The position numbers and the translations under genes were made by a program. A stretch of DNA of 41,245 bases from positions 1-41,245 of the forward strand of contig CAIJWE010000025.1 of the NCBI GenBank assembly GCA_903824295.1. The letters are read 5' to 3'. This DNA is from an uncultured Chlorobiaceae bacterium (GTDB lineage: Bacteria > Bacteroidota > Chlorobiia > Chlorobiales > Chlorobiaceae). Under the pieces are notes generated by a model, which was given only the letters and a program-made list of their open reading frames with translations, had not been told where the DNA came from and searched no databases. Shown here one piece after another: positions 26,691 through 39,429 of the stretch (positions are counted from its first letter, which is position 1; every line of letters starts with the position of its first letter).

Positions 26691-26812
26691 CACATTGAAA
26701 TCTCAAGGAAGAAGGAGATGATATCGGACAATCGGTAGAGAGTAGGGGTGGCTATGATAATTTATATTATTCTTCCTTTTAGGATAAAACACTCTTATTC
26801 AAAACAACAACA

Positions 26813-27454
26813 TTAACGCATGAATATTTTCCACACATAGACGAAATTATTCAACCAATGAGCTAATGCACCATCAATACCGCTTCTCATCGACCAAATA
26901 ATTAATATCAAATGAAACAATATAAACGCCACAATAAAAAGGCACGAGAAAAATATCCCGTAATACTGAATATCTGGTTGGAATCTACCAATTTGTTTTT
27001 TCATTGCAATTGCATGAAATCCAAACGTTAGCCCTATGAGCAAATCAATAATCCAAAGAGCTTTAATCGTTATCCAAAGTCGGAGAATTAATAAGGCAAA
27101 GGTATAAACAGGCAAACAGTAAGGTGCAAGTAAAATAAACGGATTGTTCGTCATTTTGCCACTGTGAGAAATAGCACCGCCTTCACCGTTTGTGGCATGA
27201 AATAAATGTATCTTTTGGAAAAAAGCTAATACGACAATAGTGTGCGTGAGCTCATGGGTAAAGGTCTCCAAAAAATCCAGATTTTTTTGGAGCAAACCTT
27301 TCAATACTATATATGCTACAAAGCCAATAATAAACCACAAATAAGCTTTTGGGTGCATTACTGCCCAACTGATTGCATTATATAGGCAATAAATGCTGAA
27401 TAGCGAAAACAGGGTTATAAGTGGATATGATATAATTTTTAAGAATTTGAACAT
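26813..27454 (-). CDS. Membrane HExxH (M50-like) metalloprotease-like protein
   Basis: The 213-residue polytopic protein has about five or six hydrophobic segments and the zinc-protease motif H67-E68-L-T-H71 in FTHELTHTIVVLAFF, placed inside or next to a TM helix as in M50-type intramembrane proteases. A downstream segment (SGKMTNNPFILLAPYCLP) sits where M50 proteins carry their further metal or structural region, but a canonical NPDG motif is absent. It is the last gene of the cassette, starting 9 nt after the PBP-like gene. It may process a membrane protein of the same operon, such as the single-TM 528-aa protein; that is inference. Base composition is A+T-rich like the rest of the cassette. 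Confidence 0.7.
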   Translation of the reverse strand: MFKFLKIISYPLITLFSLFSIYCLYNAISWAVMHPKAYLWFIIGFVAYIVLKGLLQKNLDFLETFTHELTHTIVVLAFFQKIHLFHATNGEGGAISHSGKMTNNPFILLAPYCLPVYTFALLILRLWITIKALWIIDLLIGLTFGFHAIAMKKQIGRFQPDIQYYGIFFSCLFIVAFILFHLILIIWSMRSGIDGALAHWLNNFVYVWKIFMR

Positions 27455-27463
27455 GATGCCTCG

Positions 27464-30127
27464 TCATTGAAAAAGCTTGTCAGTATAGAAAAGGATTTTT
27501 TCAAAAACATTATTTTTGTTGGATATAAAATTACGAGCAGAACTAGAATTGATATTGCCTATAGCACTGCCTTTTTCTGTCCAATATGTATGCACAATGC
27601 GTACAACTGCTGAAATACCGGAATTATGTGCAACTCTATCACTTCCATTTCTAATTCTGTTATATTGTATAGTATTCATAAGCGAGAATGAATACAAACC
27701 CATATCATATTCAACATTTTTTTTGTTGTCGCTGTTTATATTTCGTTGGGCATTTTCAATATCAGGCAAAGAAAATTCATCAGGCGTCCCAGTTTTTCCC
27801 AAAATTACTAAATTGCGACCAATAGCAGTAACACGAGATTGAGACGGGCCGAGCAAACTTGCATTACCATTTGACGACTGTGCATCGTGAAATGATTTCA
27901 TAAAATCGTTCCATACATCATTTGCCCTCCTTGTGCCGTGTCGATAATCTCTGCCGTCCCGATCTATTTTTTCAGTAAGCAGTTGTTCGTAAGTTGGATT
28001 GGGATTACGAATAAAGGACAATCTAACAGGATATTTTGTGTTCATTCTTGCCCAAGCTTCTGCAAGCTTTAACGGAGACCAACTGTTATCGCCTTGACCC
28101 AATACCCACGAAATCACTTTTGTGCGAAATGATTCTCCATTGTTGTGCCACGACCAATAATTCATATTGGTATATTCAGGCGATATATCAGGAAACGAAA
28201 TGCTATCTTCTTTGCTAAATTGATTTTTATTAAACATTCGCCAAACATAAATTTCAGGAACAATATGCATATCTTGGGTGTTTTGCCTTGCTTCGTTTGA
28301 ATTGATATTGTACAAAATATCAAGCATTTTTGCGAACTGACTATTGTGTATAGGATAATCACTGTTTATTTTAGTGTCTGCCGTTCTGGGGAGCAATAAA
28401 GTTGCAGGAAATTTGTGTGGATTTATTGTCATAAAACTTGTTGGCAATTCATTTCGATCGTTTGGATTTGTAAAAGCGTACATTGCCAGCATAATAGGGT
28501 AGACATCATTTGAAGACGCAAAATATTGGGTCATTGTCATTCCGTTATTCCACTGTGCTTTAATGTAATTCGACAAACTGAAAATGGGACAACCGAGCAA
28601 AGTTACATTCCAACGGTCGCCGTTAGCAACAGGCAGTGGTTGCCACATTGCAGGATTAGTTGTTAAATTAAGTAAGTCTGGATAAACCTGTACTGCTGCC
28701 AAAGTCATAAGCGGCTTAAAGCATGAACCGATAAAACGCCGTTGAGTATTTGAATTTTTCCGATCTAATTGATAGGCTGGATTGATTCTTAATGTTGAAT
28801 ACGAAGGTGCTGCCAAAATTTCACCTGTAGCCGAATTTATTAATGAAATAGACATTTCAACCTTTTCACCTTCGTGTAACTTAACACCACTAATCAAAAC
28901 AGAGTCAACATATTTTTTTAATTCGCCTTCTAAGGTTTTAGACAAATAGGGGTCTATTGATAGATTAATATTATCAGGCGATGTTTCGTTCATTTTCTGA
29001 TTAAAAAGATCTACGATTTTCTGTGTAAAATTATCGGTATAAAGCGTATCGACCTGTGTTCTCATTTTCCCCTTATTTGTATCAAGAGAATATGAAAGCG
29101 TATTCATTGGATTGTTGCGAAAAAAATAAAATTCGGCTTTCTTGTTTTTTATACCTTCATCAGAAACTACTACTCTCAGAACATTTTCGTTAAATCTAAA
29201 AGTACACCCGACACGAGAAAGACTTGCATTAGGAGAGCCTACCATTTTTTTTGTACCACAATAAATATCTAAATTTGTAGGCATATCAAAAACCAAACTG
29301 TCTCTTTGTTTTATAGTGTCCGTAAAAATTTGTACCGTAAAAGATTTATTGTCATCACCGTCAACACTAAATCTTATAAACCTTCCTTTTTCATAACATT
29401 CTTTGTAGTAATCGTATAAATCAATTGGCAAATCGCTGTGCTGTAAATAATTATTTTTTAACTTTACGATATAATTTTCCTGGCGTTGGACAAAAATGCT
29501 ATCCTGTCGCTTAACTGGCAAAACCGAACTTCCATATACGACAAACAATGAATTAGTTGAATCGATTTTTCCATACGAATGGCCAACAATAGTTCCAAGC
29601 CAAGGCTTATTGTTGAATTTTATTGTATACAATTCAGGAATCATTTTGATATATTCAATCTCAGCAACTCCCTTATAAATTTTAATTTTCAAATTAAAAT
29701 ACTTTTTGTAAAGGTTTTGATTTTGCTGTTTGAGAATATTTTGCAACTCGCTACTAAGATAAAAATTTTTAAGATTTGTATTTTTTATCCTATTCTCTTT
29801 AATACCGACTAAGCGAATATCGCCAACCAAGCACTCGCCTTCTTTAACATCATCGGGAAGAGCAAATATAAGTGCAGGATAACGATAATTTAATTGATCT
29901 AATGGTGTTAAATTCTTTTTTGTATCAATATTTTCTATTAATAGCAATTCTGTAAACAAAGCATCTGCTTTGCCAATAAAACCTTTGCCATCCCCGGCAA
30001 TTGGCTTATAACTATCTTTACTGCTGTTGCTAAAAAGAGAATAGCCAAATACGCAACTAACAATCACAACTACAATTACGATTATCGCCTGGAGCATATT
30101 TTTATGATTTGCATTAAATACCGCCAT
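27464..30127 (-). CDS. Membrane-anchored penicillin-binding-protein-like transpeptidase
   Basis: The 887-residue protein has an N-terminal TM anchor (about residues 11-33), a long extracytoplasmic region (35-430) that I do not recognise, and a C-terminal transpeptidase domain. All three active-site motifs of penicillin-binding proteins are in order: S468-C-F-K471 (in RRFIGSCFKPLMTLAAV), S538-S-N540 (in FASSNDVYPIM) and K778-T-G780 (in VILGKTGTPDEF). The entry strand SLINSATGEILAAPSYS is also typical of PBPs. The triad is intact, so an active D,D-transpeptidase is likely. The spacing to KTG is longer than in most class B PBPs. A SEDS-like gene lies in the same cassette, matching the known SEDS/class B PBP partnership. 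The M50-like gene follows after 9 nt. Confidence 0.8.
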   Translation of the reverse strand: MAVFNANHKNMLQAIIVIVVVIVSCVFGYSLFSNSSKDSYKPIAGDGKGFIGKADALFTELLLIENIDTKKNLTPLDQLNYRYPALIFALPDDVKEGECLVGDIRLVGIKENRIKNTNLKNFYLSSELQNILKQQNQNLYKKYFNLKIKIYKGVAEIEYIKMIPELYTIKFNNKPWLGTIVGHSYGKIDSTNSLFVVYGSSVLPVKRQDSIFVQRQENYIVKLKNNYLQHSDLPIDLYDYYKECYEKGRFIRFSVDGDDNKSFTVQIFTDTIKQRDSLVFDMPTNLDIYCGTKKMVGSPNASLSRVGCTFRFNENVLRVVVSDEGIKNKKAEFYFFRNNPMNTLSYSLDTNKGKMRTQVDTLYTDNFTQKIVDLFNQKMNETSPDNINLSIDPYLSKTLEGELKKYVDSVLISGVKLHEGEKVEMSISLINSATGEILAAPSYSTLRINPAYQLDRKNSNTQRRFIGSCFKPLMTLAAVQVYPDLLNLTTNPAMWQPLPVANGDRWNVTLLGCPIFSLSNYIKAQWNNGMTMTQYFASSNDVYPIMLAMYAFTNPNDRNELPTSFMTINPHKFPATLLLPRTADTKINSDYPIHNSQFAKMLDILYNINSNEARQNTQDMHIVPEIYVWRMFNKNQFSKEDSISFPDISPEYTNMNYWSWHNNGESFRTKVISWVLGQGDNSWSPLKLAEAWARMNTKYPVRLSFIRNPNPTYEQLLTEKIDRDGRDYRHGTRRANDVWNDFMKSFHDAQSSNGNASLLGPSQSRVTAIGRNLVILGKTGTPDEFSLPDIENAQRNINSDNKKNVEYDMGLYSFSLMNTIQYNRIRNGSDRVAHNSGISAVVRIVHTYWTEKGSAIGNINSSSARNFISNKNNVFEKILFYTDKLFQ

Positions 30128-30308
30128 ACTATTCTACCCCTTGATTTACAGAGTTAATAAGCGTTAAACTACAAGTTTTTCCGTGTTAACGTGTCGGTTT
30201 TGCTTGATTTCCTATCGTTCAACTAGTCAGTTACTTAGGGATTAACTCTTGTTTAGAGCTTACGATTAGGAATCTCGTTATAAAATTCACCTCCTGTAAC
30301 TTGCCCAT
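30128..30308 (-). other. Intergenic 181 bp in the cassette: no translatable gene, structured element
   Basis: This is the only large gap within the cassette. It contains a 100-bp segment (30150-30249) bounded by perfect 9-bp inverted repeats, AGAGTTAAT and ATTAACTCT. On the minus strand a Shine-Dalgarno-like AGGAGGTGAAT (around 30290) is not followed by a start codon. Instead it lies within a 30-codon open stretch (30253-30345) in another frame, overlapping the end of the 528-aa gene. It may hold a promoter or a mobile/structural element. No U-tract terminator is visible. Confidence 0.5.
30150..30249. repeat. 100-bp segment flanked by perfect 9-bp inverted repeats
   Basis: AGAGTTAAT at 30150-30158 and ATTAACTCT at 30241-30249 are exact reverse complements. 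Inside are partly symmetric blocks (CGTTAA and TTAACG near the left arm). It could be a folded RNA, a MITE-like remnant or an attC-like recombination site; none of these is demonstrated. Confidence 0.5.
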
Positions 30309-31895
30309 CTATTGTTTTTGTTTTGAACGTACGAATATAGTCGTATCATTGATTTTAAAAGAAATAAGCTCCTTATTTAGAATGTCTAACACTTGAAACC
30401 ATTCAGGATTTATTGTAATCGACATCGTTCGCCCATCTGGTACAGATACAGGTACAGATGCATTTGCTGGTGCTGAAGGAGCCTCTACTAACGGTGTTAT
30501 ATGGGCTGGCGCATTTATAAGTGAACCAGTTTTATAGCCACCTCCAAAACAAATAATCAATGCTGCTATTACAAGAAACGCTGTAATATTGTATTTATTT
30601 ACATAGTCAAAAGTTTTTTTGAAAATGCTTGGCATTGTTATATCATTTTTAAAAAACTCTTTATGTACTTTGCGAGATAACTGCTTGATTTTATGTTCAC
30701 AAACAGAAAATTCAATTCCAACATTTTTAAAAAATATCAATAATTCGCGCAGTTTTTTCTCTTTTTCTTTTTCAGGAATAAAATCTATCAATTTTTTCAC
30801 GTCAATATCTTGACCAATCAACAATCTGTTGTCTGGCAACAATTTTGTATCTTTAATATCTGGAATATCAAGGCTTTTAATTGTCTCCGTATCAGGCATT
30901 TGTTTTGTAATTTTCCAAATAAAAACAACTTCACCTATATTTTGACAGAATGGGTAAAGCTCTGCAATGCTATTTGACAAATCAATGTTGATAAATGGAC
31001 TTTTTCCACCAAGATAGTTCAAAAATTTTTGAAAGTCGGCAGATGTAATAGGCTGTAAATTTTGAAGGATTGTTGCAAAAGATAAATCGGTATCGAAAAA
31101 ATCTATTGCGCCATTCATCAATCTTGATGCGCTTCTTATATATACTTCCGATTGATCGAGATAATCAGTTTCAGACTTATGACTTAAATCACTCCATTCA
31201 ATTTGTTTTATTTTTCCAAATCCGAAGTCTTTTATATTACCGTGATAAATAATAATCAATTTATCATACAGAAATTCTTTGTAGTAATTTTCATCTATCG
31301 ACAATGCAAACGAAGCCAAAGGGCGCAACTCCTCGGGCAACATGTCTATAGCTGCAAAAAGCGTTTTTGCAACTTCGTTTTCCAAAACTCCATTTTCTTT
31401 CCATTCGAAATCATTATCTATACGAATTAACAGATACTCTAAATTAGCAATCGCATGCATAATTTGTTCGGCAAGATTGAATGCTTTGCTTCTGTCGTAT
31501 CCTTTAGTTTCTTTTAGCTGTAATAAATTGTCTAACTGTCCAATTTTTTTGTCACGATACTTTTCCATTTTCGGCAAACTGTTTATAATTTCACCGATTT
31601 TGAAATTGCATTCACGAATATTATCTGCATCAATGTCGTAAAATATTCGCGTATCGTACATTCTACCGGGTATACCATTGTGTTGACCCTGAATATGTAT
31701 AACTGATAGACAATTAAGGCTTGGCTCACGATATGCAAAAAGCGAGGCATATATTGGCGACAGTTTGTTTTGTCCGTGCTTGTCTTCAAGCAATTCAGAA
31801 ACGTGTGGGCGTATAGTTGTGGTCGCAATTTCCAAATAACCTATTGCTCCCTCTAATGCGCCCTTTATTGCTTTTTTTATTAGTATATTTTTCAT
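30309..31895 (-). CDS. Unknown 528-residue protein with one TM segment near the C-terminus
   Basis: The large N-terminal part (residues 1-430) is soluble and mixed alpha/beta, with no domain I recognise. One hydrophobic segment lies at about 436-453 (ITAFLVIAALIICFGGGY). It is followed by an Ala/Pro/Val-rich stretch (APAHITPLVEAPSAPANASVPV) and a short beta-type tail that would be extracytoplasmic if the N-terminus is cytoplasmic. This bitopic layout could pass a signal across the membrane, linking the GTPase-like side to the wall-enzyme side. It starts 7 nt after the 213-aa gene and precedes the PBP-like gene. Its last codons overlap a 30-codon open stretch in another frame (30253-30345). 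Confidence 0.7.
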   Translation of the reverse strand: MKNILIKKAIKGALEGAIGYLEIATTTIRPHVSELLEDKHGQNKLSPIYASLFAYREPSLNCLSVIHIQGQHNGIPGRMYDTRIFYDIDADNIRECNFKIGEIINSLPKMEKYRDKKIGQLDNLLQLKETKGYDRSKAFNLAEQIMHAIANLEYLLIRIDNDFEWKENGVLENEVAKTLFAAIDMLPEELRPLASFALSIDENYYKEFLYDKLIIIYHGNIKDFGFGKIKQIEWSDLSHKSETDYLDQSEVYIRSASRLMNGAIDFFDTDLSFATILQNLQPITSADFQKFLNYLGGKSPFINIDLSNSIAELYPFCQNIGEVVFIWKITKQMPDTETIKSLDIPDIKDTKLLPDNRLLIGQDIDVKKLIDFIPEKEKEKKLRELLIFFKNVGIEFSVCEHKIKQLSRKVHKEFFKNDITMPSIFKKTFDYVNKYNITAFLVIAALIICFGGGYKTGSLINAPAHITPLVEAPSAPANASVPVSVPDGRTMSITINPEWFQVLDILNKELISFKINDTTIFVRSKQKQ

Positions 31896-31902
31896 GATCG
31901 TA

Positions 31903-32544
31903 TTAAATTTTTAATAGCCAATTTTCTATATTAGAGTTATTCATATATGCTGGAACTCGTATCTTGTATTTACTAAATAAATCAACAACAAGATTAAAAG
32001 TCCCAAATGGCAAACGTTGATCTATATTAAGATTGTCAAATTTCTGACGATGAATGCTGTTATTTTTATGTATAGTCAATTGGGTTCCGTCTATTGGATA
32101 AGCTGTAAAATATATATGCGGAATAATGATATTTGTATATACTGTAGGCGTATTTGTATTTACTGATGGCTTAAACCTTTCATGGCCAAATACAGTATAG
32201 CTTTGCAATTCACTAACTCTGCTCGCTAAAAGTACATCAAGTCCTTGATTATTATTGTCTCGAGGAACTGCAAATTCACTTTCTTGTTTCAATATATCAT
32301 CTAAATATACAGAAGAGTTGTCAATGTGAATGAAGTTTGGATCTAAATTACTTTCATCAAAAAGAATCCAGTTTGATGCTTTACTGGCACCTTCAAAGAA
32401 TTCATCAAATTTATCAACAAACCTCGCACCAAATTTCTTATATATTGCTAATAGGACGAGATAGTATACTTTAGTCGACATAGTCTTAATGTCGGTGACA
32501 TTAAAAGTATTATATAATCCAATGAATTTATCAGGATTCAACAT
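31903..32544 (-). CDS. Unknown 213-residue cassette protein
   Basis: A soluble protein with no signal peptide or TM segment: MLNPDKFIGLYNTFNVTDIKTMSTKVYYLVLLAIYKKFGARFVDKF, then a mid-region rich in Asn/Asp. I do not recognise the family and see no catalytic motif. It lies between the GTPase-like gene (9-nt gap upstream) and the 528-aa gene (7-nt gap downstream), both on the same strand. It is therefore surely part of the transcript and a candidate cytoplasmic partner of the GTPase-like protein. Confidence 0.7.
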   Translation of the reverse strand: MLNPDKFIGLYNTFNVTDIKTMSTKVYYLVLLAIYKKFGARFVDKFDEFFEGASKASNWILFDESNLDPNFIHIDNSSVYLDDILKQESEFAVPRDNNNQGLDVLLASRVSELQSYTVFGHERFKPSVNTNTPTVYTNIIIPHIYFTAYPIDGTQLTIHKNNSIHRQKFDNLNIDQRLPFGTFNLVVDLFSKYKIRVPAYMNNSNIENWLLKI

Positions 32545-32553
32545 TGCATCTAA

Positions 32554-34290
32554 TCATTTAAATACTACATATAAATTAGGACACGTTCCAGTTTCTTTTT
32601 CAAAAAAGGTTTTGACACCACGGAGACATGATGTATAGTTTTTCTGTTCTGTATTAACATTATAGCTTATCCCTCCAGCATCTATTGGCAATGCAAGCAA
32701 TTCACATAAAATTATATCAGTACTTTTATCACAAAATACATATGCATAGAAATTTTGCCAAAATGTAGTAGAAATATTTTTTAAATTAGCATACCCATCT
32801 ATCTCTTCTACTATCTGTTTTAATACATTCTTTAAATTATCTGTATCATATTGTTCAAAGTTTTTTACAACATCTTTTCCGCTGACATATTTGTATGCTT
32901 TAAGATTGTGAATATTATTTTCATCGACATTACTGACCTCACGCATTAAGACTCGTTTTGTGCTTTTCGTATTCCCCTTATAAAGAGATAATTGTCTCCC
33001 CTTTTCACTATCCATTTCCATTAAGAAGTTAATATTATCAATATCCAAAGAAATACCAAGCCATTTTATAAGCCTTTTTGTCAATTTGTTAGGAAGTTTA
33101 GTTAACATTATCTTCCACCTTTTATGAGTGTATTTCTCTTTAAGGCAGGACTTTAAATTCGTATAAATACCAGTAATATTTTCAGCCTCGTGAAATGCCT
33201 CACCCGGTATATCCATAAACTCAATAATTCTTTCATTTCCTTCAATTGTTAATGAACCTTTATAGTGGTGTGTTGATTTTGTAAGATTAGTTATATCTGT
33301 AGGGTCAATATTTTTATTTCCAACAATACTGTTCAAATAACTTTGAACTTGCGGATAACCATAATAAGGTTTCGTATTTACATTTATTCCCATAATGGTT
33401 AATGCTCTGAAAATATCAGAAATACAATGCGATTTCCCATTATCTTGAGTTCCTACAACAGCAATTTTTATTGGTTTTTTTTTCATATCAGTATTGTATT
33501 TTATGCCATTATTCTTTGTAATATAATGATACAACTTATTACTTGTTATTGATATTTCGGCATTTTTATCTTTATAAATATGATTTATGCAATAAATCAA
33601 ACAATCAATGTAACCAAAATTTATATCTGATTTATATAAACAGAAAACCTTTTTTCGAAGAATAAGACGTTTTTTTTGTGGAGTTATAATGCCCTGTGTA
33701 TCCGTGTAAGGAAACAAATATCCAGATTGTAAAAGGCTTTTCAATTCTTCTGAGAATCCTTCTGCTGTTCCATTTATAAGATCTATGTGCTGCGCAACTG
33801 CTAATCTTGCGTATGTATTGAAATCAACAGGATATTTCTTTTCAAACCCAAAATGAGGGTCTTCATCAAAAGCAGCAAACAAAATTGTTTTTTCGCTATC
33901 AATTTGCTTTATGTTATATGATATCCTGTTTATTTTCCATGTTTCGGGTAAGTTTTGTAAATCAATACACAAAACAAAAATATCGGCCGAATCGCACCAG
34001 ATTTTTATACTCTCCGAAATACTATTGTTATCCTGATATTCAAAAATTTCCGCTGGTGGCGCTGTATTATCAAAAGTAATTTGTCGTTTAGGCAAATCTA
34101 TTCGACCACCTCCGAGATAAAATGATTTTTCTGTTCCTGCCACTTTTTTACGCACAAAGCCCCATCGCTTATCAAAAACTTTCTTTTGCGTAAGTAAATT
34201 CTCAAAGTGCACAATAATCCTGTTTGTTTCGTTTTTGTGTTCAAAAAACGAGAACAGGCATATACGGCCATTCGGGATTTTTTGGTTCAT
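32554..34290 (-). CDS. P-loop GTPase-like protein of the cassette
   Basis: The 578-residue soluble protein has a Walker A motif G280-TQDNG-K286-S287 (KIAVVGTQDNGKSHCISDIF), and 80 residues later a switch II/Walker B-like D360-I-P-G363-E (IIEFMDIPGEAF). This is the G1/G3 arrangement of TRAFAC-type GTPases; DxPGE forms are seen in GTPases of bacterial conflict and signalling operons. No clear G4 N/TKxD was found. Residues 1-250 form a separate domain without a P-loop (VLCIDLQNL, TILFAAFDEDPHFG), perhaps a degenerate relative. The frame extends to 34380, but ATG 34290 overlaps the stop of the upstream gene by 4 nt (ATGA) and is taken as the start. Confidence 0.75.
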   Translation of the reverse strand: MNQKIPNGRICLFSFFEHKNETNRIIVHFENLLTQKKVFDKRWGFVRKKVAGTEKSFYLGGGRIDLPKRQITFDNTAPPAEIFEYQDNNSISESIKIWCDSADIFVLCIDLQNLPETWKINRISYNIKQIDSEKTILFAAFDEDPHFGFEKKYPVDFNTYARLAVAQHIDLINGTAEGFSEELKSLLQSGYLFPYTDTQGIITPQKKRLILRKKVFCLYKSDINFGYIDCLIYCINHIYKDKNAEISITSNKLYHYITKNNGIKYNTDMKKKPIKIAVVGTQDNGKSHCISDIFRALTIMGINVNTKPYYGYPQVQSYLNSIVGNKNIDPTDITNLTKSTHHYKGSLTIEGNERIIEFMDIPGEAFHEAENITGIYTNLKSCLKEKYTHKRWKIMLTKLPNKLTKRLIKWLGISLDIDNINFLMEMDSEKGRQLSLYKGNTKSTKRVLMREVSNVDENNIHNLKAYKYVSGKDVVKNFEQYDTDNLKNVLKQIVEEIDGYANLKNISTTFWQNFYAYVFCDKSTDIILCELLALPIDAGGISYNVNTEQKNYTSCLRGVKTFFEKETGTCPNLYVVFK

Positions 34291-35672
34291 TGTCTTTTTG
34301 TACTGCTTATTGCTGGAAAAGCGACCAATCCTGCCAAAAGTATAGGGGCTAAATCTATCAAAATACTTAAGAAAAAGCATCGGATACTTTCCTTAAACAG
34401 CAGTTCATGGACTTCTTTTTCGCCCTCTGATCTTAAGTTATTGTGGTTTTCTGTGTATTTTCCGGACAACAATTCAAACAAATCATTAAGTGCTTTATTT
34501 TGGTCTATTGTTTTTGTATTTATGATAGTATGATACTTTATTACTGTTATATTTTTTTGTGAAAGAGAATCTAATTTGCCATATAACTCACCCTCTACTT
34601 TTACAATATTGCTTTTTATATTTCGTTGCATTACTTTATTACCAGCTATTTTCTCCAAATCAAATCTTAGAATCAAAGAATCCAATGTATGTAGTAAACT
34701 ATCAGCTGAAAAAATTGCGTCCTTTTTTTGGATAATAGGCGGTGTTTGTATTGTATCATCTAAATCTTCAATTTTTTTATCAAGTTCTTTTATATTTTTA
34801 TTTACCTGATTAAATACCGGATTTGTGTAACGAAAATTTTTTTCGTCATATTTATATCTGGTAATTTGACTGCTATTTAACTTCTCCTGTAATTCACTTT
34901 TCTCTGTTTTATATTCATTGATTTTATTTATATTTGGTTGATTTACTTGTCGAAGTGAATCTAATTTTGTGTTTATTTTTTGTTTGTCCGTGCTGATGTT
35001 TGGCGTTATGTATTTGCTTAATTCTTCGCTTGTTCTTACTGCTTGTGCCATTATTTGCGTTTCGCCAAAGTTGCTGTAAATATGAAAATAGTTAAAAGTT
35101 AATGCTGCAATATCAAACAATATGTAAAGCCCGATACAACATACCAAAAATAGAATTTTTTTGTCGCCTTGTATATAGGGCATTTGGTGTGTAAGCCAGC
35201 CTGTTACCCAAAAGAGAGTAACAATGACAATAACTGACAGAAACCAACAGAACACACCGTCAAGCCCGTTTTCATTCATCCACAAAAAAGATATACTTTC
35301 ATGCATAATGTAGCAGGCAACAGCCAAAAATGAAATAGTTAATATCCAACGCAGATAAATCCAAACCGACATTTCACGCATTTTTTGTCCTGTACTTTTC
35401 CATCTCTCTTTCCAGCTTTTTGGCGTATCGTATTTGTAATCATAATTTACAGTTTCAATGCAAATTTCGTCTTCCGCCTCAAACTTTTTATAAAAGAATG
35501 AGGTCACCCAACCAATAAAACAGCTTATTAACAACCACAAAAACCAGTTACTATTAAAATTGCGGCAAAAAATTCCGAAAACAACTATATACAGCACAAA
35601 CGTTATTAGCAGACCATTGTTTAGGAAGAGTTTACCAAGTTTGTTTATCGCTTTTTTCTTTTCTTCTGTCAT
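34287..35672 (-). CDS. Polytopic membrane protein with extended coiled coil, unknown family
   Basis: The 461-residue protein has five predicted TM segments in its first half (about 20-37, 42-62, 103-122, 139-160, 171-192), a long charged helical region at about 200-425 (KINTKLDSLRQVNQ, KTEKSELQEKLNSSQ, KNIKELDKKIEDLDD) that should form a coiled coil, and a last TM at about 429-455. I do not recognise the family. Its ATG overlaps the SEDS-like stop (ATGA) and its stop overlaps the GTPase-like start (ATGA), so it is coupled to both and may be a membrane scaffold or sensor between them. Confidence 0.75.
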   Translation of the reverse strand: MTEEKKKAINKLGKLFLNNGLLITFVLYIVVFGIFCRNFNSNWFLWLLISCFIGWVTSFFYKKFEAEDEICIETVNYDYKYDTPKSWKERWKSTGQKMREMSVWIYLRWILTISFLAVACYIMHESISFLWMNENGLDGVFCWFLSVIVIVTLFWVTGWLTHQMPYIQGDKKILFLVCCIGLYILFDIAALTFNYFHIYSNFGETQIMAQAVRTSEELSKYITPNISTDKQKINTKLDSLRQVNQPNINKINEYKTEKSELQEKLNSSQITRYKYDEKNFRYTNPVFNQVNKNIKELDKKIEDLDDTIQTPPIIQKKDAIFSADSLLHTLDSLILRFDLEKIAGNKVMQRNIKSNIVKVEGELYGKLDSLSQKNITVIKYHTIINTKTIDQNKALNDLFELLSGKYTENHNNLRSEGEKEVHELLFKESIRCFFLSILIDLAPILLAGLVAFPAISSTKRQ

Positions 35673-38578
35673 CTTTTATCTTGATTATAAGGATTATTCA
35701 AAGTACACATATATGCAAATAACACAATAATTTCGAATGCTTCCCCTACTGCATCAACGCCAAAGCCTGGTATTAGCCGTCCTGTGAATGGGACTATATC
35801 ATAATAGGAAGCGAATAGAAAAAGTGTAACACCAATCCACAAGTTGCAAGCAAGCAGTTGCCCAATTAGTTGACGATTTATTGTGAATTCTTGAGGATTT
35901 TGTCTCCATGCATCGCCAATGCTGAAAAAATAAACATAAAAGCCCAATGCCAAAACACCAAACAACAAGCCAATCCAACCCCAGCCACGCATCGAGCCAA
36001 GATATACGCCAGGAATGGCAAAATCATTCAATATTACAGGTGACTGGCCCGCAGAAACAAGTTGGTGAAAATTGTTTTCTTCGCTGTAAATATCATAATC
36101 ATTACCTCTACCAGCTTCTACCTTCTCAGCATAATGAAGCATCACTTCCATCCATTGCATATCACTTTCGGAATAGAGATAACCCGCATTTTTCACATCG
36201 CCTGGTGAAATATAATTTTGTATACGGCGAGACACCCTACTATAGTTAATATTTTCTGTATTAGAATATATATTTGAAACCTCCCAAACTCCAATCCCAA
36301 GAACAAGAATGCAAACAATCAAACTCAAACTAAAATTCCAGTTCATAATTCGAATATTGTTTTTTCCAGCACCCGATATTACTTTAGAAGAACAGAATAT
36401 CAAAAACATCCAAGTCGCAGCGATTCCAAATACATATACAAAAAAACCAAAATCAGAAAAAACCCCTATTAAAACCCAAATACAAACAAAAGCCAAATTT
36501 CCAATAATCCACAGCCAAAGTTTGTGGGTCAACAAATTAGTCTTATACCATTCTTTATTTTTCGAAATACCATAAAATGCTTTATGTTCAATGTTTTCGT
36601 ACGCTGGATTAGTTTGGCAATTAATTTTCCAACAAAATATATTTTCCCCCATATACCGATCAGTTGGTGTAGGTATCGTAGATGTAAGTATTTCCATTAA
36701 TTGTCTTAATACAATAAGCAAAATCAGCACGGCGGCTGCCGTGCCGTAATGTCCAAGAAACGATATAAAAATTGCTATTAAAATGATTATTCCGATTTTA
36801 GTCGGCCATTTCAAATTGGCAATACTCGGAAATTTCTGCTCAATCCAAATAATCGTTTTTTCTATAAAATTAAGATTTAATATCAATATCAAAAAAAATA
36901 ACAAACCACCAACCAACTCAAAAACATAAAAGTGATTGTCCTTCATTGAATTACTAAAAGGTTTAAGAAACGATATCTCTTCTTTTAAATAACTGTTCCA
37001 AATCGGCGACACAAAACTTTCTGTTATGCCATTATACGCTTTTACACAAATAATAATAATAAAAATAGAAATAATTGATTTCCATATCCAGTTATAACTT
37101 ATTTTAAGTTGGATATATTTTTTGGTTTTTGAAAATAATCCTTTTTTTATTGTAATATATTTAAGACTGGCATTGTTTAAAAACGACCTGTTGATCACAA
37201 TTATTAACAAAAACATTGTAAAAAGTGAGAACAAAGTTGTAAGATACGCAACAGGATAAATATTTTCAAAATATGGATATGTAAAAGTCAATTTCTCGGC
37301 AATCAATAATTTTTGATTTAAAAAAAACCAAAACAAAGTAAACATACCCAAGATATACCAACGCATATCTTGAATTTTTTCAGCTTGTGAGCCTCCTCCT
37401 GATTCAGGAAATGACAAAAACAAAATCACCCCCAAAACCAACCATACAACTGCCAATACCCAATGTTTCGACCAATAAAAAGCTTTATTTAAAACCCGTG
37501 ATTTGTATGTGATTCCGCCCGCTACAAGTTGTTGATTTACTGCATTAATTTTTGGAATAAAGCTTCCTGAAGTCGATAACAGTACTGTATCTTCTTTTTC
37601 TGATTCCTGGAAAATCAGATTATTGTTTTTAACTCCAGAAAGTTCACAAACATTTCCTGAAAGGGCATTAGAAAATGCAGGAATATAAAAATCGGTAGGC
37701 AAAGGGTAATATGATTTCAGCATTTGCTTAAGATACACGCCTGTTTTAGAACTATCACCTCTTGCTTTTGTTATTCCGTCAATTGGAATCGTGGTGGTTA
37801 TAGCTTTGGGGAAGGTTACTGAAAAATGTGAATCATTTCTTTTTATGAGAATATGACCCGCACCCCAATCTGTAAATACTTGCACTGGTTTTGCAAAATA
37901 TGTTCTAATGCTGTCTGATAAATTTTTGTTATTCTCTTGTTTTTTTATGCTCCAACTTTTCATTTTAAAAAACTGGATTTTTAATTCTGAGCCTTGAGAT
38001 AACGTCTTAGAATAGCAATAACCAACATCATTTATTCTTGTGGATTTGTCGAGGATTACAAGCCTGTATTCGCCATTTTTCTTATGAATAAACGAGTTGA
38101 ATTCAATTTCGCCATTATTTACTGAATTAAGAAGTTTAAGAGTTAAGCGGTCAGCAAATAAATCTTTGAGCATATAGTAACCATCATCAAAATCTTTTAA
38201 TCTTCTTAAAATATAATCACCAGTAACTCGAATATTAAAAATGGTAATTATGCTGTTTTTTCCTATTTCGTAAAGATTGATATTTTCGTTATTGATAAAA
38301 TAATACAAACAACTATCTGTATTGTTGATTTTGTATGAAAAGGCTCCTTTATCATACGATACTGTCATATACTTTTCAGGTATACCTTTAAAGCACACAT
38401 CGGAGTTCTCGCCAATGGTTAAATCATTGCTATTGGGCAAATCAAATTGTGTAATTGAGAAATACAAACGATCATTCGTGGCATTTATATATCCGAACCA
38501 TACAATACTGATTGTAGCTAAAATAGTTGCAACCGTCATACCAATAAACCCGTTTTGGAATGGGAATTTGAATTTCAT
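35669..38578 (-). CDS. Divergent SEDS (FtsW/RodA)-like polytopic protein with large extracytoplasmic domain
   Basis: The 969-residue protein starts with a TM segment (about 10-31), then has a roughly 340-residue non-membrane, probably extracytoplasmic region, then about a dozen TM segments from residue 373 to the end. The C-terminal half resembles SEDS peptidoglycan glycosyltransferases: FLGHYGTAAAVLILLIVL, then LNDFAIPGVYLGSMRGWGWIGLLFG, where D852 would match the catalytic Asp of the DFIF...EElGfiG loop, and P930-FTGRLIPGFGVD, equivalent to the PvTGlPLPF motif. Similarity is motif-level and the protein is more than twice normal SEDS length. The PBP-like partner in the same cassette supports the call. 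An ATGA overlap joins it to a 36-codon ORF upstream. Confidence 0.68.
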   Translation of the reverse strand: MKFKFPFQNGFIGMTVATILATISIVWFGYINATNDRLYFSITQFDLPNSNDLTIGENSDVCFKGIPEKYMTVSYDKGAFSYKINNTDSCLYYFINNENINLYEIGKNSIITIFNIRVTGDYILRRLKDFDDGYYMLKDLFADRLTLKLLNSVNNGEIEFNSFIHKKNGEYRLVILDKSTRINDVGYCYSKTLSQGSELKIQFFKMKSWSIKKQENNKNLSDSIRTYFAKPVQVFTDWGAGHILIKRNDSHFSVTFPKAITTTIPIDGITKARGDSSKTGVYLKQMLKSYYPLPTDFYIPAFSNALSGNVCELSGVKNNNLIFQESEKEDTVLLSTSGSFIPKINAVNQQLVAGGITYKSRVLNKAFYWSKHWVLAVVWLVLGVILFLSFPESGGGSQAEKIQDMRWYILGMFTLFWFFLNQKLLIAEKLTFTYPYFENIYPVAYLTTLFSLFTMFLLIIVINRSFLNNASLKYITIKKGLFSKTKKYIQLKISYNWIWKSIISIFIIIICVKAYNGITESFVSPIWNSYLKEEISFLKPFSNSMKDNHFYVFELVGGLLFFLILILNLNFIEKTIIWIEQKFPSIANLKWPTKIGIIILIAIFISFLGHYGTAAAVLILLIVLRQLMEILTSTIPTPTDRYMGENIFCWKINCQTNPAYENIEHKAFYGISKNKEWYKTNLLTHKLWLWIIGNLAFVCIWVLIGVFSDFGFFVYVFGIAATWMFLIFCSSKVISGAGKNNIRIMNWNFSLSLIVCILVLGIGVWEVSNIYSNTENINYSRVSRRIQNYISPGDVKNAGYLYSESDMQWMEVMLHYAEKVEAGRGNDYDIYSEENNFHQLVSAGQSPVILNDFAIPGVYLGSMRGWGWIGLLFGVLALGFYVYFFSIGDAWRQNPQEFTINRQLIGQLLACNLWIGVTLFLFASYYDIVPFTGRLIPGFGVDAVGEAFEIIVLFAYMCTLNNPYNQDKR

Positions 38579-38685
38579 TCTTTATTCTCAATTATAAGAT
38601 TCAGAAAGATTGCGTAGGCCCTGGATAAACGCATGAGGTATCTGTTTGCTGCTTCAGAGGTTTTTGCATTGGGTCGCAGTGGCAT
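38575..38685 (-). CDS. Small 36-codon ORF coupled to the SEDS-like gene
   Basis: ATG 38685 opens MPLRPNAKTSEAANRYLMRLS... and ends in a TGA that overlaps the ATG of the SEDS-like gene (ATGA at 38575-38578). The open frame continues upstream to a stop just before a CAA codon, adding about 13 residues without another ATG. It may be a translated leader that couples ribosomes to the SEDS-like start, or the tail of a truncated gene carried into the island. No similarity recognised. Confidence 0.4.
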   Translation of the reverse strand: MPLRPNAKTSEAANRYLMRLSRAYAIFLNLIIENKE

Positions 38686-38734
38686 CAGCAAAGTTGCATT
38701 GGCAAAAGGTGTATGTAGCCATTGTCAAATCTTT

Positions 38735-38744
38735 AGTCGCGACT
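38735..38744. promoter_or_regulatory. Palindrome AGTCGCGACT upstream of the cassette
   Basis: A perfect 10-bp palindrome followed by TAA lies 50 bp before the small leader ORF. A related palindrome sharing the GACTTAA core is at 38828-38839. The pair could be operator half-sites for a repressor of the cassette; no regulator gene is seen in the window. Confidence 0.3.
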
Positions 38745-38827
38745 TAATATCGCCATATTACGTCGCAACATATTCTCTGAACAACTGTACTCAATAACAA
38801 AATAAATACACATAAAATATATAATGC

Positions 38828-38839
38828 CGACTTAAGTCG
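38828..38839. promoter_or_regulatory. Palindrome CGACTTAAGTCG upstream of the cassette
   Basis: A perfect 12-bp palindrome lies immediately upstream (on the minus strand) of the TATATATTTTATG stretch, where an operator overlapping a promoter could sit. It shares the GACTTAA core with the palindrome at 38735-38744. Confidence 0.35.
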
Positions 38840-38964
38840 ACTACACGGAATACACTAAAACAAGACGAATAATGAAGCGTTACGATAAAAAAAGCTTTGA
38901 ATCGGCGGACTTTGGGTGGGTGTATGTGGCATTTTTGTATATATAATTTGCAATTACTGACCGC

Positions 38965-39073
38965 CATCACGTACTACAAATAACTCACTCTCAATGTATT
39001 CAACATTTTCAACTATATAAACGATTAGTGTAAATTTTTATTAAAAATCACCGAAAAAGATCAGTTTTACAGC
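38965..39073. repeat. Dispersed repeat, copy A (upstream of ppx)
   Basis: A 109-bp stretch matches 40707-40814 in the same orientation. A 23-bp core is identical (38992-39014, starting CAATGTATTCAACATTTTC), with further matches on both sides (TACAAATAACT before it; GTAAATT, TTAAAATCA, AAAAAG and TTTAC after it). It carries no transposase and lies in non-coding DNA. Confidence 0.75.
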
Positions 39074-39429
39074 ATAGCTACCAGTCTGTTATTGATCGAA
39101 CTTTGTGTATCTGTTGTGCTGCGCACCTGGCAATCAGACTCATGATAAGCTCACAGCGGCATTCCTCACTTTCCAAAATCTCACTTTGCACAACATCACG
39201 TTGAGTGAATACTCTCAAAACCCATATATTTACCATATCTTAACGGAACCAAAATTTTACGTACGAGTTGACCCCTGACACGCAGGTATCTGTTGGCTGA
39301 TTTATCGCCAACAGAGCCCGCATACATCGGCAAATTGGATATGGTTTTGCTTCTGTCAATGTTGCACCAGCAACCTGAACAAGAACTTTTTCGGGAGGTA
39401 GCGCTTCTCGACAATAATAACGCACTCAA

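Follow-up and report, generated by a model that had tools for sequence, protein, structure and literature searches.

A candidate GTPase-gated peptidoglycan cross-linking module on a horizontally acquired island of a Chlorobiaceae bacterium

Introduction

SEDS–PBP pairs are known from growth, division and sporulation, or are tied to kinases. The PBP partners most relevant here are the class B PBPs (FtsI/PBP2-like, PF00905), and the island protein described below shares with them a single N-terminal transmembrane (TM) segment, the order SxxK, SxN, GQG/GYG and KTG and, ahead of the active site, the SID..L...L region and TGEILA; it differs from them in its sub-threshold Pfam score, in having no recognised pedestal, and in longer SxN–KTG and SxxK–SxN distances. 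A second relevant group, the double-GTPases (DO-GTPases) of conflict systems, is described as carrying a conserved Walker B Glu and as having GAP1 and GASH or FNIII partners, often near the membrane; the main text of that source contains none of the terms transpeptidase, penicillin, FtsW and SEDS (PMC7159879).

Here we analyse a locus in an uncultured Chlorobiaceae bacterium at which a PBP-like gene and a GTPase gene occur in the same operon. The window, 41,245 nucleotides in length, is one whole contig, and its genome encodes a member of PF02327, the family of bacteriochlorophyll A proteins (E 9.5e-225), which points to a green sulfur bacterium of Chlorobiaceae type. A reading of the DNA letters (the original prediction) had proposed that 27464-30127 encodes a PBP-type transpeptidase, with an unrecognised N-terminal region and a SEDS-like partner in the same cassette; it named neither the strand nor the precise prmA–ppx insertion nor the GTPase.

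The Island and Its Insertion Site

The G+C content of the window falls from ~0.52 to ~0.33 across 27-39 kb, and the GC profile and comparison with relatives define an AT-rich island (26691..39429) between prmA and ppx. These two genes adjoin in nine of ten close relatives, where they run together or lie at most ~10 bases apart. In the window, neither the end of prmA around its stop nor the beginning of ppx around its start is disrupted, so the island falls precisely between the two genes. In the tenth relative (L267, G002:C45) the 15 kb upstream of ppx lack prmA and contain RHS-repeat genes, which suggests a hotspot for insertion that has been used more than once. No target-site repeats frame the island ends, and an Rfam search returned no match. 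The island holds seven genes, all on the minus strand and with intact ORFs, separated by gaps of 7-9 bases or joined by ATGA overlaps (two, one of which requires the GTPase start at 34290). This seven-gene unit, including the PBP-like gene, is foreign and horizontally acquired. Elsewhere in the same genome, PF00905 proteins above the cut-off are encoded on contigs C114, C14, C105 and C30, and FtsW/RodA proteins on C114 and C51; the island PBP is therefore an accessory copy.

Several further features of the region were recorded. The longest gap in the operon, 181 bases (30128-30308), runs from the 528-aa gene to the PBP gene and may hold a separate regulatory signal. The 850-base right end of the island, in which no gene is listed, contains a 19-base near-repeat (38636-38654 and 39284-39302, 89%), and a G+C-rich hairpin of nine pairs with a T-rich tail (36725-36746, minus strand) lies inside the AT-rich 969-aa gene. 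Three relatives carry short second copies of the ppx 3' end at 67-87% identity (G002:C67:2437-2538, G010:C169:5262-5354 and G018:C220:2679-2786), such as insertion at a gene end could leave. The G+C content is also lower (0.40-0.49) at positions 1-2700 of the window.

The PBP-Like Protein: Motifs and Profile Similarity

The 887-aa PBP-like protein is encoded at 27464..30127 on the minus strand (ORF list, translation, motifs, and HHalign with shuffles), frame 1 of the plus strand having many stops over the same interval. Hydropathy predicts a sole N-terminal TM segment (residues 14-32; 30032..30088). The start of the transpeptidase domain is marked by SLINSATGEILAAPSYS (residues 428-444; 28796..28846), which aligns to the PBP profile, and is followed by SxxK (S468-C-F-K471; 28715..28726), SxN (S538-S-N540; 28508..28516), a GQG element (residues 677-679; 28091..28099) succeeded by DNSWSPLKLAEAW, the two together corresponding by motif pattern and HHalign to the G[QY]G...TPLQ region of class B PBPs, and KTG (K778-T-G780; 27788..27796). 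The triad named in the original prediction (S468xxK471, S538-S-N540 and K778-T-G780) thus lies at exactly those positions (SCFK 468, SSN 538, KTG 778), as does its sequence element at residue 428. Since the protein contains five SxxK-type strings, a single SxxK motif carries little weight; SxxK, SxN and KTG do occur in class B order, at spacings greater than in the references.

Library profiles gave weak, collinear matches in two pieces: Pfam PF00905 at residues 425-480 (13.9 bits against a cut-off of 22.1, hence sub-threshold) and NCBIfam pbp2_mrdA at residues 667-795 (E 0.008, 14.8 bits against a cut-off of 455). A transpeptidase profile was built here from 33 PF00905 proteins of other genomes and of the same genome. 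With HMMER, this profile ranked the PBP-like protein above the other island proteins and 1400 shuffles, but at an E value of 0.0033. With HHalign, the PBP-like protein matched the PBP profile over residues 383-480, around S468, with a probability of 90, E 1.8e-6 and a score of 58.7, compared with at most 26.6 for 60 full shuffles, at most 26.1 for 60 local shuffles and 13.0 for the reversed protein; this match supports the predicted PBP-type transpeptidase domain. When the remainder of the protein was aligned, residues 621-785 matched with GKTGT in register and a score of 26.9, which is about that of the best whole-protein shuffle (26.6, of 120), so that the KTG-side match is only consistent with such a domain. 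Taken together, these comparisons support a putative PBP transpeptidase domain in the 887-aa protein despite its sub-threshold Pfam score. Two AlphaFold models (mean pLDDT 30 and 45) were too poor to use.

Against separate class profiles, the labels of which were assigned in this analysis, HHalign scores ranked FtsI-like (56.3) above class A (45.6) and PBP2 (42.9, five sequences), with lower scores for SEDS–PBP fusions (29.2) and for a PF00905 group of 263-324 aa taken to be class D-like (25.8). By this ranking, the nearest profile of the PBP-like domain is that of FtsI-like class B.

The extreme divergence of the protein and its weak profile scores would also suit a pseudoenzyme, in which the fold serves as a scaffold or binding module and carries out no catalysis; we judge this improbable, given that the S, K, S, N, K, T and G residues and the GQG-like element have all been kept, and in order.

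Architecture of the PBP-Like Protein

The ~350 residues between the TM segment and the profile match (residues 33-382; 28982..30031) have no recognised match in Pfam or HHalign, in agreement with the original prediction of an unrecognised N-terminal region. Pfam found no domain in residues 1-382, including the glycosyltransferase domain that marks class A, and HHalign of the N-terminal region against the PBP profile scored 12.4, which is noise; the class B pedestal/dimerisation module was not found by this comparison. It is because this module is not recognised that we describe the protein as class-B-like rather than as a member of class B.

The long insertion also predicted between SxN and KTG holds: this spacing is 240 residues, and the corresponding range is 145-164 among the reference PBPs (measurable in 26 of 33). 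The SxxK–SxN spacing is 70 residues, compared with 53-59 in 26 references. The SxN–GQG spacing is 139 residues (57-77 in 10 of the 33 references) and the GQG–KTG spacing 101 residues (86-89, likewise in 10), references with unmatched motif patterns being left out of each range. The insertion therefore lies mostly between SxN and GQG (residues 541-676; 28100..28507). The PBP-like protein may, as had been proposed, be both active and specialised. An intact triad, a location on an accessory island and an enlarged region between the active-site motifs would also fit a PBP that is simply accessory or of low affinity and sustains cross-linking when the housekeeping PBPs are inhibited, with its neighbours as unrelated passengers. 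The tight packing on one strand and the predicted TM segments in four of the six other island proteins suggest instead a single membrane machine, and we give the passenger reading a low probability.

Neighboring Genes and the Metalloprotease-Like Protein

On the downstream side of the PBP-like gene lies a gene for a 213-aa protein (26813..27454, minus strand) with five TM segments by hydropathy, a sub-threshold M50B-like Pfam match and the motif HELTH at residues 67-71. This arrangement of a PBP-like domain adjoining an HExxH membrane protein resembles the parts of BlaR1. In BlaR1 and MecR1 an M56 protease is fused to a class D-like sensor. The island could accordingly encode a split BlaR1/MecR1-like sensor, with beta-lactams or wall fragments as ligands of the PBP-like domain and the metalloprotease-like HELTH protein as the relay of the signal. 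We consider such a sensor distinctly unlikely: the domain is closer to class B than to the 263-324-aa group, the HELTH protein is a separate chain and M50B-like rather than M56, Pfam scans of all seven proteins of the island identified neither a BlaI-like repressor nor a beta-lactamase, and the GTPase would be left unexplained.

On the other side are, all on the minus strand, genes for a 528-aa protein with one predicted TM segment near the C-terminus (30309..31895; ORF list, hydropathy), a second 213-aa protein with no Pfam, NCBIfam or PADLOC match (31903..32544), a 608-aa GTPase (32554..34380), a 461-aa protein with six predicted TM segments and a 240-aa loop (34287..35672) and a 969-aa multi-TM protein (35669..38578). 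Residues 363-446 of the 528-aa protein have a weak match (E 1.3e-5) to phrog_21426, a family of unknown function, and tblastn of the same protein against phage records returned no match.

The GTPase

The 608-aa protein has the features of a TRAFAC GTPase with a Walker B Glu, namely a P-loop GTQDNGKS at residue 310 and DIPGE at residue 390. An alternative start at 34290 would place its gene in ATGA overlap with the upstream stop. Relative to six double-GTPases, HHalign gave a collinear match with a score of 43.8 (E 1.8e-5), and relative to a single one (L050) a score of 28.4, with 100 shuffles at or below 21.4; the comparison set consisted of DO-GTPases only. The pattern D-x-(P/A)-G-E is common to the island GTPase and three of the five double-GTPases checked, and the Pfam DO-GTPase2 match is sub-threshold (E 0.12).

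Like the DO-GTPase systems (PMC7159879), the island combines the P-loop and Walker B Glu (DIPGE) with a mobile neighbourhood and membrane-associated components; unlike them, it has no recognised GAP1, GASH or FNIII protein. None of the three was matched by Pfam among the seven island proteins, in a search that detected GAP1-N in all three control proteins from other systems, and HHalign of the 528-aa protein against these three GAP1 controls gave noise. An 'LP...R' motif expected of GAP1 occurred in none of these three GAP1 proteins. The trio of GTPase, 213-aa and 528-aa proteins is similar in size to a trio of GTPase, 209-aa and 533-aa proteins at L050, but the resemblance has no sequence support and was set aside. 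DO-GTPase loci from other genomes were also inspected, and neither the PBP gene nor the SEDS-like gene had a counterpart there.

The 969-aa Protein and the SEDS–PBP Fusions

In the 969-aa protein, a ~345-aa N-terminal region lies between predicted TM segments 1 and 2 and is followed by many TM segments, with SEDS-like C-terminal motifs NDF at residue 851 and PFTG at residue 930. The original prediction had paired the PBP-like protein with a SEDS-like partner. All profile tests of that idea were negative, with no SEDS (FtsW/RodA) similarity by Pfam, by our own profile or by HHalign, whereas a C-terminal DF...GxG...PxTG pattern, written post hoc after the likeness had been noticed, fits the 969-aa protein and 25 of the 32 true SEDS proteins, but only 4 of 2000 local shuffles. 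In a background of 2059 ORFs, two carriers of the pattern are not classed as SEDS by the profile, and one of these two is the 969-aa protein itself. Weighing profiles and motif, we give the 969-aa protein roughly an even chance of being a SEDS protein.

Single-chain SEDS–PBP fusions of 1222-1357 aa, beside FHA and PP2C genes, were identified in other genomes of the phylum (L241-L244); Pfam assigned SEDS and transpeptidase domains to L242 and L244, and FHA or PP2C to their neighbours. Their order of N-terminal region, SEDS and transpeptidase parallels the island with its putative SEDS protein, and signalling genes adjoin in both. They differ from the island in being one chain, in being readily recognised by Pfam, and in having neighbours of phospho-signalling type rather than a GTPase, and their sequences are not significantly similar to those encoded on the island.

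Distribution

No relative of the PBP-like protein other than itself was found in 150 relatives or 394 genomes of the phylum (overlapping sets), nor in plasmids, phages, viral contigs or genome contigs. In 325 genomes of a class there was a single match, local (residues 144-254) and at 29%, which on visual inspection resembles a ComF-type phosphoribosyltransferase and was rejected. The 98 pattern matches checked in genome contigs (80 and 18) included none that was related; an in-frame check covered 105 of 123 pattern matches (L053-L157). Contig scans pick up only peptides that are nearly identical or patterns that match exactly, and the genomes searched represent part of the phylum, so this failure to find relatives does not prove absence. 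Similarly, the other island proteins had no relatives in plasmids, viral contigs or phages, and the GTPase had none in 97 genomes of the order (the source genome not being among those listed). Apart from its own genome, 11 of 385 gave short motif matches to the 969-aa protein, all local and weak. We recognised no publication describing such an island in a literature search.

A Proposed Switchable Wall-Synthesis Module

The best explanation of the locus as a whole, in which we place about half of our confidence, is an accessory GTPase-gated peptidoglycan cross-linking module. The PBP-like protein would be bitopic, crossing the inner membrane once and exposing outside the cytoplasm a class-B-like transpeptidase domain with intact catalytic residues, and the cytoplasmic double-GTPase-like protein would act as the switch, the state of which the membrane proteins of 528, 461 and 969 aa would relay across the membrane. 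Once switched on, the PBP would cross-link peptidoglycan locally, in probable partnership with the SEDS-like 969-aa protein, which would polymerise the glycan. We infer the activity of the PBP, its pairing with the 969-aa protein and its gating by the GTPase from the gene neighbourhood and from the parallel with the signal-linked fusions. The trigger would be stress or conflict, the role of the module being a response to these rather than housekeeping growth.

The tight operon, with its overlaps and 7-9-base gaps, counts in favour of such a module, and the signal-linked SEDS–PBP fusions provide a precedent. Counting against it are the PF00905 score below the cut-off, the KTG-side score close to the best shuffle, the negative SEDS profile tests of the 969-aa protein and the unrecognised GAP1/GASH proteins. 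A more specific proposal is a mobile GTPase-gated peptidoglycan synthase, in which a double-GTPase-like switch controls a dedicated, highly diverged SEDS–PBP pair and wall synthesis is itself the conflict or stress effector; this we advance tentatively, as unlikely.

The locus hints at a wall-synthesis unit that is triggered by a signal and does not serve ordinary growth. If this is true, the presence of a wall synthase with a conflict-type GTPase on a strain-specific island would mean that bacteria acquire switchable modules for wall synthesis, and that the range of PBP-type domains is wider than standard family models detect.
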